From an uncultured Actinomycetes bacterium (GTDB lineage Bacteria; Actinomycetota; Acidimicrobiia; Acidimicrobiales; RAAP-2): 64,000 nt of DNA. Positions 1 to 4,830 of this stretch are shown here, piece by piece. Under the pieces are notes generated by a model. The model was not told the DNA's origin and did not search any database. It saw nothing but the letters and a program-made list of their open reading frames with translations. The position numbers and the translations under genes are program-made. The stretch lies in contig CAIORQ010000105.1 in assembly GCA_903860745.1 (NCBI GenBank), positions 1 through 64,000 on the forward strand. Direction: 5' to 3'. Every line of letters starts with the position of its first letter. Position 1 is the stretch's first letter.

Positions 1-228
1 CGGCCTTCTTGGCGGGAGCCTTCTTGGCTACGGCCTTCTTGGCGGGAGCCTTCTTGGCTACGGCCTTCTTGGCGGGAGCCTTCTTGGCTACGGCCTTCTT
101 GGCGGGAGCCTTCTTAGCAACGGCCTTCTTCGCCGGCGCCTTCTTAGCAACGGCCTTCTTGGCCGGGGCCTTCTTGGCGACTGCCTTCTTCGCAGGAGCC
201 TTCTTGGCTACGGCCTTCTTCGCGGCTG
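1..228. repeat. Tandem ~30-bp (2x15-bp) coding repeat encoding [10 protein letters not shown] pentapeptides
   Basis: GGCCTTCTTGGCGGGAGCCTTCTTGGCTAC unit repeated with increasing divergence from left to right. Confidence 0.9.
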
Positions 229-235
229 GTGCCAC
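1..235 (-). CDS. Lys/Ala-rich repeat protein (histone H1/HU-tail-like N-terminus), truncated by window edge
   Basis: Reverse strand reads [29 protein letters not shown]...; GTG start at 235-233 preceded by AAGGAGG and an in-frame TGA about 10 codons upstream; open to the window edge. Confidence 0.75.
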
Positions 236-515: not shown

Positions 516-1823
516 TTGGTGTTCGTGACACTCGATCGTGGTCTCTATCTCGGACGTGCGCAACAACACGACGTATCGAGTGGTGCGCAACGTTCGACCC
601 TGGTGCTCGGTCCGAGTCGCAGTGGCAAGACGACGTCACTCATCATTCCGAACCTCTTGATGACCACGCGCTCCTCCATCACCACGTCGACGAAGGACGA
701 CGTCGTTCGCGCGATGAGTGGTGCGCGTCGCGACGGTTCGACCCTTCTCTTCGATCCCTCGGGCACGGTCGACACGCCCCCCGGCGTGCGACGCGTGGGC
801 TACTCGCCCCTGCGCCAAGCGTCGACCTGGGACGGTGCCGTGTTGGCCACCCGGAGCCTCGTGGACGTGGCCCGTCGTCAGCATCTCGACGCGGGCGAGT
901 CGCACTGGAACGAGCGCGCGGGCGCACTCGTCGCACCACTCCTGCACGGGGCCGCCCTCGGTGGCGAGACGCTGGGTCGCGTCGCCGGACGGGTCGACGC
1001 CCGCGACGCCACCGACCTTCTGAACACCCTCGCCATCAGGTACGGAGAGGCACACCCCTCCGTGGCGCTCCTGCGTGGCGTGCTGGCCACCGAGGAACGC
1101 GAGCGTTCCAGCATCTGGTCGACGGCCTCGGGTCTCTTCGCCGGGGTGCGCACCGACGCCGCGCGAGCGGCGGCCCGCGAGGCACCCCTCGACCTCGACG
1201 AGTTCCTCTCGGGCCCCCACCAGTTGCACGTCGTCTCTCCGTCGCGCTACCAGGCCGTCACCGTGCCGATGGTGGTCGGCATGATCGACGAAGTGGTGCA
1301 CGCGACCTACGACCGTCACCACGACGGGGCGCGGCTCCTCCTCGCCCTCGACGAACTCGCCAACGTCGCACCGCTGCCTCGCCTCGCGAGCATCGTGTCC
1401 GAAGGTGGCGGTCAAGGTGTGCTCACGCTCGCCTGCTTGCAGGACCTCAGCCAGGCGCGTAGTCGATGGGGACATCACGCCGACGGTTTCCTCTCGCTCT
1501 TCCCCACCACCGTCGTGCTGCCCGGCATCGCCGACCGCGCGACCCTCGAGATGATCCACCAGCTCGCCGGGCGCACGATGGTCCCCGCGCACCAGGTCCA
1601 GCACTCACGACGTGGACGCGCGCAGGGGTACTCCCAGTCGTGGATCGAGCGCGACGTGATGTCGGTCGGCGACGTCGCACAGGGACGAGACGGTTACGCC
1701 CTCGGTCTCACCGATCACAAGGAGTTGCGGTGGATCGAACTCACCCCGTCGTACGCCGACGAACGCTTCCGTCCTCATCTCGAGTGCGTCCAACCCTCGC
1801 GCGCACGCTCGCGCGAGCGCTGA
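516..1823 (+). CDS. VirD4/TraG-family type IV coupling-protein-like ATPase lacking an obvious N-terminal TM segment
   Basis: Walker A GPSRSGKT followed by SLIIPNLL; Walker B-like LLLALDELANVAPLP; TraG/TraD C-terminal motifs (GGGQGVLTLACLQDLSQARSRWG). Start TTG/GTG ambiguous. Confidence 0.8.
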   Translation: MVFVTLDRGLYLGRAQQHDVSSGAQRSTLVLGPSRSGKTTSLIIPNLLMTTRSSITTSTKDDVVRAMSGARRDGSTLLFDPSGTVDTPPGVRRVGYSPLRQASTWDGAVLATRSLVDVARRQHLDAGESHWNERAGALVAPLLHGAALGGETLGRVAGRVDARDATDLLNTLAIRYGEAHPSVALLRGVLATEERERSSIWSTASGLFAGVRTDAARAAAREAPLDLDEFLSGPHQLHVVSPSRYQAVTVPMVVGMIDEVVHATYDRHHDGARLLLALDELANVAPLPRLASIVSEGGGQGVLTLACLQDLSQARSRWGHHADGFLSLFPTTVVLPGIADRATLEMIHQLAGRTMVPAHQVQHSRRGRAQGYSQSWIERDVMSVGDVAQGRDGYALGLTDHKELRWIELTPSYADERFRPHLECVQPSRARSRER

Positions 1824-2851
1824 AGCCAGAGCTCGAGCTCGCCCGGCGCCAGCGGACGGGCGCCGAGCTCGCGCGTCAGGGAGTACATGCGCGCCTCGCG
1901 CACGCTCACGGTCCCCTCACGCACACCGCGCGACTCGCGCACTCCGGGGTAGAGGAGGTCGACCGCCGCGGTCACCTCACGCGCCTCGCGACCGAAGGGA
2001 GCCGCGTTGGCCCAGGCCTCGACCAGGTGTCGTCGCGCCACTGCGTCACGCCCCTCGAGGGACGACGCGAAGGCGTGCTCGTCGAGGCGCTCGGGCGCCC
2101 GCGTCGCCACGGGGACCACGCCGTGGGACTCGAAACGAGCGAGGTCGTCTTCCCAGGCACCACGGGCGTCCTCGCGCGACCAGTGGCGCTTCTGCCCGCG
2201 TTCGCCGTGGTGTCCGCCCCACAGGACCCGGTAGCCCTCGTCGAGGCCCGCCACGTGCTCGACACCCTCGAAGGAGCGCCACGGCCGATACGGCGTGGTG
2301 CGCGCCACTCGGGCGCGCAGCGAACTGCGGTAGAGGGCGTCGGCCGCGAGCGCGTGCGCGAACAGCGCTCGCGAGTCGAGCACGTTGACGGAACCCTGTG
2401 GTCGGGCGCCGACGAGCACGTGGTCGTGCAGGTGCGGCTCGCCGTGGCGATTGACGCCGTGGGTGAACGCGGCCACGTGGGCCCAGCGCCCCGGGAGGTC
2501 GCGGTCGACTCCCCCGCGGCGCTCGCGCACGACGAGCGCCCGATCCTCCAGGTACTCCAGGGCGTCGCCGACGGCCCGGCGATGGGCGTCCACCACGGCC
2601 GGGGCGTGTCGCTCGTCCAACGCCAGGAGCACCGACAGGGGCCGCGGGGCCGCGACGATGAGGTCGTAGCCGACGACCGCGGAGCGCTCGGAGCTGGTGA
2701 GGAGACGTTGGACGTCCTCGACGCGCTCGAGGTCTCCCCCTCCCCGGAGCCAGCGCTGGGCCGGACCATCGCGCAGGTCCTCCAGCTCCCGGGCCGGGTC
2801 CTGAGTGAGATAGGTGACGTCGCGGCTGCGTCGCACTTTCAGCGTCAGCAT
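1775..2851 (-). CDS. MobF/TrwC-type relaxase domain protein (358 aa, no helicase domain)
   Basis: MLTLKV... N-terminus, GYDLIVAAPRPLSVLLALD, 3-His motif HGEPHLHDHVLVG; ends directly after the relaxase domain. The ORF track start (3619) is an overlong artefact; ATG at 2851. Confidence 0.8.
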   Translation of the reverse strand: MLTLKVRRSRDVTYLTQDPARELEDLRDGPAQRWLRGGGDLERVEDVQRLLTSSERSAVVGYDLIVAAPRPLSVLLALDERHAPAVVDAHRRAVGDALEYLEDRALVVRERRGGVDRDLPGRWAHVAAFTHGVNRHGEPHLHDHVLVGARPQGSVNVLDSRALFAHALAADALYRSSLRARVARTTPYRPWRSFEGVEHVAGLDEGYRVLWGGHHGERGQKRHWSREDARGAWEDDLARFESHGVVPVATRAPERLDEHAFASSLEGRDAVARRHLVEAWANAAPFGREAREVTAAVDLLYPGVRESRGVREGTVSVREARMYSLTRELGARPLAPGELELWLQRSRERAREGWTHSR

Positions 2852-2880: not shown

Positions 2881-4830
2881 CTAGAGCTGTTCGAGGATCC
2901 GATCGGCCACGGCCCGACCGGCGCGGGCGTACTCCAGGGTGGCCACCACCGCTCCGGGCCCCGCGCGCAGCATGAGGTGGTCGAGGAAGTTGGTGTCGGA
3001 CACGTGGAAGCGCACGGCGTGACGCCCATCGGCCAGGGCGACCCACTGGGCTCCGGGCAAGGGCTCGAAGAGGTAGCGCGTGCGCCCCTCGACGACGACC
3101 ACCACTTCCGCACCCTCCTCGGCCACCGCCGTCAGCCAGTTCGCGACGGGGTCGGATCCACGCTGGTCGGTGACGGCCGACTTGGCCAGGACCGCGCCGA
3201 TGCGGTCCACCCGGAAGGTGCGCCAGTCGTTTCGCGTCAGGCAGTAGGCCCGCACGTAGGCGTGGCCGTTGAGGACCTTGACCTGCGAGGGTTCGATGCA
3301 ACGTTCCTCGGGGGTCTCGGCGGTACCCGTGAAGTAGGTGATCTTGAGTTGTTCGTGCTGCGTGACGGCCTCGTAGACCGTGGCGAGCAGGGGCTCGTCC
3401 TGAGGACGCTCGAGACGCATGAAGTGGCTCGTCACCTCCTCGATCTTGTCGATGGCCGAGAAGATGGCCGGGTCGTCGAAGAGCCGCGACGCCTCGCGCA
3501 GGGCCACGTTGAGTTCGAAGAGGTCGCGCCACATGAAGGCCGAGGGTTCGTCGTCCTCGGACAGGAACTCGGCGCGGTAGGTCGAGTCGTCGGTGTCCTC
3601 CTGGTCCCAGTCGTCGCACTCCTTGATGACGCGCGCCGGGAAGGACATCGCTCCGTCGAAGGCGTCGAGCATCGGCTCCATGGTCACCAGGCGTCCCATG
3701 ATGGACCGCACCAGGTCCTCGCTCATCGAGAAACGCGTGGCCAGCTCCGAGACCCGCAGCCCGTCCTCGGCGTTGTAGACCGCGTGCAGCAGTTGCAGGG
3801 TCTGACCGAGCACGTCACCGGCCGAGGCGGCGGGGAACTTGATGTCCGCAACGTCGGGGGTCTTGCCTCGATTGACGCGCCCCAGCCACTCGCGCAGGTC
3901 CTTGACGAGGGCCTTGGGGCTCACCAGTCGCAGCCGCTCGCCGCCCTCGAGGACGAAGCGCAAGGCCGCGTGGGGGCTGTCGAAGGTCAGCCCCACCTCG
4001 ACCCGGTCGTCCTTCTTGGTCGCCGCGATGGATCCGACGTACTGGCGCAACAGGAGATCCGCGTAGTCGCGATTGGTCTGCACCACGACGTCGATGGGCT
4101 TGGGGCTCTTCTGGTACTCGGGGCGCCAGGCCGAGGCCAACTCCAAGACGGCGTCGTCCACGCTGAAGTCCTCCGCCGAGACCACCGGCATCGAGGTCAT
4201 CCGCGAGAAGCGATATCCCTTGATGAGCCCCCCCTCGGTCTCGCGGGCCACCAGATAGGACATGCCGCGCTCGTGGAGGATCTGCAGGGGCTCCACCTCA
4301 CGACTCTTGCGCACGGAGGACTGGTAGTCGAAGCTGAGACGGCGACGTAGCTTGATCGCGCGGATGGCGGGCGTGAGAAAAGCGGAGGACTCGAGCCCGC
4401 CGTCGCCCGCGGGTCCGTCGTTGAAGACGCTGAAGGCCCCCGACTTGCCGAAGCCGCAGAATCCCAGCGCGGTGGCGACCACCCGGTACTCGGCGGGCGT
4501 GAAGTGCAGCGGGGGGGCGTAGCCGCTGCTGGGGTCGATGCGGTACGCGGTGAGGCCGTCGGCGCGCTCGACGGTCTCGATCTGAAAACCGAGGTCGCGG
4601 ATGCGGGCCTTGTCGCGCTCGAACTTCTGGCGCACCGCGGTCTCGTTGCCCAGGTAGGCGGGCACCTTCTTGGGCGACTTGGACGTCGCCGGGTACTCGT
4701 CGATGCGCAGATCGCGCACGATCTCTTCCTGGGTCAGGGGACGGCCGTCGGTGAAGGCGCGCTGCAGGAGCAGCACGAGGGCGACGATGCGCTCGCGGCT
4801 CGGCTCGGCACTGGGGCGTGACGTACTCAT
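2881..4830 (-). CDS. Tandem WYL-domain transcriptional regulator (fused PafB-PafC-like)
   Basis: 649 aa with two HTH/WYL-like halves (SRERIVALVLLLQRAF...; VLGQTLQLLHAVYNAEDGLRVSELATRF...). Confidence 0.8.
   Translation of the reverse strand: MSTSRPSAEPSRERIVALVLLLQRAFTDGRPLTQEEIVRDLRIDEYPATSKSPKKVPAYLGNETAVRQKFERDKARIRDLGFQIETVERADGLTAYRIDPSSGYAPPLHFTPAEYRVVATALGFCGFGKSGAFSVFNDGPAGDGGLESSAFLTPAIRAIKLRRRLSFDYQSSVRKSREVEPLQILHERGMSYLVARETEGGLIKGYRFSRMTSMPVVSAEDFSVDDAVLELASAWRPEYQKSPKPIDVVVQTNRDYADLLLRQYVGSIAATKKDDRVEVGLTFDSPHAALRFVLEGGERLRLVSPKALVKDLREWLGRVNRGKTPDVADIKFPAASAGDVLGQTLQLLHAVYNAEDGLRVSELATRFSMSEDLVRSIMGRLVTMEPMLDAFDGAMSFPARVIKECDDWDQEDTDDSTYRAEFLSEDDEPSAFMWRDLFELNVALREASRLFDDPAIFSAIDKIEEVTSHFMRLERPQDEPLLATVYEAVTQHEQLKITYFTGTAETPEERCIEPSQVKVLNGHAYVRAYCLTRNDWRTFRVDRIGAVLAKSAVTDQRGSDPVANWLTAVAEEGAEVVVVVEGRTRYLFEPLPGAQWVALADGRHAVRFHVSDTNFLDHLMLRAGPGAVVATLEYARAGRAVADRILEQL

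Follow-up and report, generated by a model that had tools for sequence, protein, structure and literature searches.

The two genes described here encode a small MobF/TrwC-type relaxase (REL) and a VirD4/TraG-type ATPase that lacks a transmembrane (TM) segment. Sequence comparison makes it reasonably probable that they supply the relaxosome half of a 'domesticated' conjugation apparatus, one owned by the chromosome and inherited vertically. Such an apparatus would probably export single-stranded chromosomal DNA, and it may perhaps be tied to DNA damage. The component families are already known. The machine itself appears to be part of the inherited chromosome in a large group of actinobacteria from soil, peat and acid water. 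More tentatively, and somewhat short of an even chance, at least 19 family-level groups would own an inherited chromosomal conjugation machine (relaxase, coupling ATPases and T4SS) that is wired to the PafBC ssDNA sensor and dedicated to chromosomal DNA exchange for repair or recombination, not to the spread of an element.

The relaxase-ATPase pair and its chromosomal locus

The window, meaning the whole stretch of 64,000 nucleotides that was analyzed, belongs to a source genome of 2.13 Mb in 110 contigs and opens at the start of contig C105 (G000:C105:1). Because the window starts at the contig end, within the Lys/Ala repeat itself, its left flank is truncated inside the Lys/Ala-repeat gene, and relatives supply the remainder. 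The features of the locus are as follows.

2-235, minus strand: Lys/Ala-repeat (histone H1-like) gene, of which the contig end leaves only the 5′ part; GTG start at 235, divergent from the ATPase gene
307-390 (within 231-494), minus strand: structured RNA hairpin of 84 nt, lying in the likely leader of the Lys/Ala-repeat gene
516-1823, plus strand: TM-less VirD4/TraG-type ATPase, 435 aa, TTG start
1775-1823, both strands: convergent 3′ overlap of REL and the ATPase gene, 49 bp, conserved, coding for Arg/Ser-rich tails on each strand
1775-2851, minus strand: REL, a mini MobF/TrwC relaxase of 358 aa with an ATG start, consisting of the relaxase domain and a short Arg-rich tail
2881-4830, minus strand: PafBC-like WYL regulator, a fused PafB-PafC, upstream of REL and co-oriented with it across a 29-bp gap

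The earlier note had described the first of the two proteins as a 358-aa MobF/TrwC relaxase domain protein with a characteristic His motif, and the profile searches bear this out. REL matched Pfam TrwC at 1.3e-27 (97.6 bits; cut-off 25), a PDB profile search returned TrwC at 4e-21, and the NCBIfam MobF score fell under its cut-off (87 vs 100 bits). The AlphaFold2 model (mean pLDDT 87) predicts an HUH/MobF fold, and its top Foldseek matches in the PDB were the TraI relaxase of pKM101 and TrwC, with E values of about 1e-9. The active-site motif reads H131 ... H140-L-H142-D-H144; all four histidines were kept in 75/75 REL sequences and Y14 in 74 of them, so that a three-histidine metal site and an N-terminal catalytic Tyr are predicted. 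The second N-terminal Tyr of MobF is absent, its position being taken by E22-L23 (E22 in 74/75), and the Pfam profile search found no helicase domain in REL of this genus, as the earlier note had also stated for the TrwC-type helicase. Arg makes up 32% of the last 20 residues versus 13% of the body. Because the overlapping ATPase frame may force part of this Arg-richness, the tail can be proposed as a secretion signal only with caution. In one genus genome (G110; L222, G110:C1:67109-67753), an in-frame TAG lies within the REL match, reflecting either decay or a sequencing error.

The second protein matched Pfam T4SS-DNA_transf (5e-20) and TraG-D_C (4e-17), in agreement with its original assignment as a VirD4/TraG-like ATPase, and is predicted to be a RecA-like motor with a TraG-D C-terminal domain. 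Its Walker A motif, placed by the earlier note about 33 residues from the start, begins at residue 32; alternative GTG starts at 519 or 525 are equally possible. The hydropathy maximum in a 19-residue window was only 1.23, which indicates that the protein has no TM segment, in line with the earlier claim that none precedes the motif, and the copies in other families likewise had no N-terminal TM. The convergent arrangement with a 49-bp 3′ overlap proved to be real and conserved: across loci the overlap had a mode of 49 bp and was mostly 40-73 bp, with the phase unchanged.

REL and the ATPase were each found in all 37 genomes of the genus (37/37); contig ends truncate some of the copies. A scan of public genomes gave 348 relatives of the ATPase, and the best 80 of these were used for locus comparison; most of these are MAGs under the names Acidimicrobiaceae, Acidimicrobiales or Actinomycetes, with palsa, bog and fen as frequent sources. 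Together with the window this made 81 loci, of which 77 had both genes, convergent in every case (77/77), and in the four loci without REL the contig ends at the ATPase. The usual order in relatives is opp transporter genes, RNase HII, CofC-like, Lys/Ala-repeat gene, ATPase, REL, PafBC-like, MoaC, FmdB and TldD/E, in which some neighbor names are presumptive assignments from protein sequence. The flanks, described before as housekeeping genes, are in fixed order, and the pair occupied one position with the same flanks in the genus genomes examined. For REL, dN/dS mostly lay at 0.08-0.31, and for the ATPase at 0.04-0.19; a near-identical pair, with too few substitutions to be informative, was the exception. 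Both genes are judged to be intact and under purifying selection across the genus. This genus-wide presence, together with synteny and dN/dS, rules out a recent insertion or decay of the pair. A plasmid origin of exactly these two genes was also considered and rejected: no plasmid record covers 80% of REL, and full-length matches to the ATPase had about 33% identity at best.

A conserved third partner had been sought, and one lies immediately upstream of REL, with the T4SS described below as a more distant one. The PafBC-like protein, presumably a DNA-damage regulator, had PafBC (6sj9) as its top PDB match (E 3e-12) and is the sole WYL-domain protein of the source genome. The distance from the PafBC stop to the REL start is 24-35 bp in nearly all loci, and the pairwise distances of REL, the ATPase and PafBC correlate (Spearman 0.81-0.88). 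The mycobacterial PafBC homologue is switched on by ssDNA. Since REL lies downstream of pafBC, it is probably co-expressed with the DNA-damage response or feeds back on it. The mycobacterial PafBC promoter motif TTGTCRGTG-N8/9-TANNNT had no match at the REL/ATPase locus. Across the window, TTGTCRGTG with at most one mismatch occurred at 46 scattered sites versus 22 in shuffles, and 0/100 shuffles reached as high a count.

The intergenic hairpin at 307-390 is a new structured RNA. Fourteen of its 20 pairs are compensated and 95.8% of cells are paired, a level of covariation that 0/500 shuffles reached and that slid controls fell far below. It is present in one copy per genus genome and was restricted to the genus in a search of 198 genomes; searches for an Rfam family or a tRNA in the conserved intergenic region gave nothing convincing. 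The region may be a cis site such as oriT. A leader RNA is favored because the G-U pairs lie on the minus strand, a promoter-like TTGACA is found upstream and a ribosome site downstream, and no copy of the RNA turned up in other families that possess the system. In relatives the Lys/Ala-repeat gene itself is flanked by the CofC-like gene and the ATPase gene; the sister genus (L185) has it too.

The T4SS operon and the distribution of the system

As the earlier note had it, the 64 kb hold no T4SS genes: profiles built for this analysis found none of these families within the window. Its description of a module 'without other conjugation genes' stands for the window, but it does not hold for the genome, in which a second ATPase match led to a T4SS operon at a second fixed locus.

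L029:6224-11002, contig C64 of the same genome: five-gene T4SS operon
Contig C64: VirB2-like protein, DUF6112, 94 aa, pilin-like, with TrbC and T4SS_pilin below cut-off
Contig C64: VirB6-like polytopic protein, 373 aa, assigned by fold only
Contig C64: SCO6880-family protein, 346 aa
Contig C64: VirB4-like ATPase, 390 aa
Contig C64: VirD4-like ATPase, 387 aa, a paralogue of the ATPase in the window

VirB4, VirD4, a VirB2-like pilin and a VirB6-like channel protein therefore occur together in the operon; the VirB6-like model is only fair (pLDDT 68), with VirB6 of R388 as its top PDB matches (E 7e-3). No VirB3, VirB8 or cell-wall hydrolase was recognized in the operon of this genus. In relatives its position is fixed, between SerS-PhoPR and a ROK kinase, and it is unlinked to the REL/ATPase pair. 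The VirD4 orthologue of the operon was found in 30/37 genus genomes and VirB4 in three of the other seven; in four of the 37 draft genomes (G001, G004, G025 and G026) the T4SS locus was not found. By gene content and position, the T4SS parts appear to be chromosomal and vertically inherited, as in Ced/Ted-like domesticated systems.

Among 198 genomes of the order, the ATPase type, defined by a best E < 1e-80, occurs in at least 19 family-level groups, and one VirD4-type paralogue is also present in the majority of genomes that carry it. In a phylum-wide sample the type was confined to the order, save for one weaker match. VirB4 was present in 37/37 genomes with the ATPase versus 4/19 without it (p = 2e-10; 5e-7 with each family counted once), and a TrwC relaxase was present in all 20 ATPase-bearing genomes tested. 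This co-occurrence of a T4SS with the pair over about 19 families supports the option, raised in the earlier note, of a domesticated mobilization module or DNA transfer system. In 16 of the 19 families with the ATPase, REL shares its strand with PafBC at a distance of between tens of bp and a few kb; this linkage was seen in 0/10 TrwC loci from genomes without the ATPase.

The convergent REL-ATPase order recurs in several families (L185, L054, L182, L187, L194 and L189). REL length ranges from 358 to about 1060 aa across families, and the relaxases of some other families, such as those of L053 and L182, have a helicase region. In family f16 (L082:6779-9208, L223) a relaxase divergently adjoins the T4SS operon. 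One member of this family, G105, has a second, full-length relaxase elsewhere. The relaxase tree was considered as proof of one descent across families and rejected; its deep branches lack resolution and the PafBC-linked relaxases are not one clade, so that descent across families rests on gene order.

All of the parts (REL, the ATPase, PafBC and the PhoPR-T4SS locus) are present in the cultured REPRESENTATIVE Acidimicrobium ferrooxidans (G068; L177, L207, L208), whose genome is a single replicon of 2,158,157 bp (PMC3035218). The PhoPR-T4SS locus lies near 205-212 kb, REL near 581 kb, PafBC some 7 kb beyond REL, and the ATPase near 610 kb. A word search of the genome paper gave no mention of conjugation or secretion (PMC3035218). 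Flagellar genes (FlgK/FlgL-like) follow the T4SS of A. ferrooxidans, and L082 likewise has genes of this kind close to its T4SS. Because this organism is a sequenced type strain with all parts, the model can be tested.

Proposed mechanism and alternative explanations

In the proposed conjugation apparatus, REL would nick chromosomal DNA and, through Y14, become covalently bound to it. The soluble ATPase would then pass the REL-DNA complex to the VirB2/VirB6/VirB4 channel, either by itself or together with the VirD4 paralogue encoded in the T4SS operon, and the Arg-rich C-terminus of REL may be used in this step. Single-stranded chromosomal DNA would be exported to sister cells, in which the recipient would use it for repair or recombination. 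No oriT was found.

The alternative that survives best, which we nevertheless consider unlikely, is a role in DNA repair or replication without transfer, in which element-derived REL and ATPase would act on chromosomal DNA (nicking, unwinding, restart) under the control of PafBC and independently of the T4SS. The short distance between pafBC and a helicase-free REL, the missing membrane anchor of the ATPase, and the separation of the pair from the T4SS locus in the genus are all consistent with such a role. It is harder to reconcile with the occurrence of VirB4 in every ATPase-bearing genome tested, with an ATPase of the TraG translocase type that carries the TraG-D C-terminal domain, and with the relaxase that stands beside the T4SS operon in f16.

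Less likely still is a secretory T4SS that releases proteins, or DNA into the medium or a biofilm, with the REL-ATPase pair as a helper or unrelated. Many T4SSs secrete effectors, and the chromosomal T4SSs of Patescibacteria, mostly without relaxases, have been interpreted as repurposed (PMC12102498). A relaxase would be superfluous for the secretion of effectors, so the TrwC relaxase in all ATPase-bearing genomes tested counts against secretion, as do the catalytic residues kept in REL of the genus.

An ancient fixed integrative element, still selfish and occasionally mobilizing plasmids or itself, is quite improbable. All parts are homologous to those of conjugative elements, some genomes additionally carry separate full-length MobF relaxases, and the per-codon coding scores of REL and the ATPase are below those of their neighbors. 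Integrating elements have ends and move. Here, the position is invariant within the genus and flanked by housekeeping genes, the parts are spread over two or three loci, and the distances track those of PafBC. A decaying remnant of an inserted plasmid or ICE, suggested by the presence of just two genes in the window and by the short REL, and akin to the residue of an integrated element offered in the earlier note, is scarcely tenable and is refuted for the genus by the 37/37 presence in the same locus with the same neighbors, the conserved active site, and dN/dS far below 1.

Comparison with known systems

REL shares the HUH fold, the three-histidine motif, the N-terminal Tyr and Asp63 with the MobF relaxases TrwC (R388) and TraI (F, pKM101). 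It differs from them in its length of 358 aa, in having no helicase and one N-terminal Tyr (Y14) of the two, and in being chromosomal and operon-like with pafBC. Similarly, the ATPase has the Walker A/B motifs and TraG-D C-terminal domain of the VirD4/TraG coupling proteins (CD1115 family, IncP TraG), but not their N-terminal membrane domain, and a second VirD4 paralogue is found in the T4SS operon.

The system resembles the T4SS-type ICEs of Actinobacteria in its VirD4, AAA_10 VirB4 and TrwC relaxase (PMC3218068), yet it has no element boundaries and no variable position, and its parts are at separate housekeeping loci. The Patescibacteria T4SS is likewise chromosomal, lineage-wide and of the monoderm type, but mostly relaxase-less (PMC12102498), whereas relaxase and T4SS co-occur here. 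Mycobacterial distributive conjugal transfer is a known case of the chromosomal DNA exchange in an actinobacterium that is proposed here; it depends on type VII secretion (PMC9905601), in contrast to this T4SS and relaxase. In the literature consulted, mostly without subscription journals, no description was found of a system that is chromosomal, vertical, dispersed, relaxase-bearing and pafBC-linked, and priority is therefore unproven.

In bacteria, conjugation systems are described as the property of mobile elements, whereas domesticated systems are known from archaea (PMC9905601). A chromosomally inherited bacterial machine would thus be unusual, and a relaxase-bearing, vertically inherited one, if confirmed, would show that a conjugation system can belong fully to the cell. 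Such a system would also provide a mechanism of gene flow for the Acidimicrobiales, which are abundant and for the most part uncultured, and would connect the sensing of DNA damage by PafBC with DNA exchange. A close parallel is the archaeal Ced/Ted DNA import, a chromosomal domesticated T4SS with VirB4, VirB6 and VirB2 counterparts and a possible link to DNA damage, for which no relaxase is known (PMC9905601). The present system differs in being bacterial, in having a relaxase and coupling ATPases, and in its probable export of DNA as opposed to import; it would in effect be the bacterial counterpart of Ced/Ted with a true relaxase.
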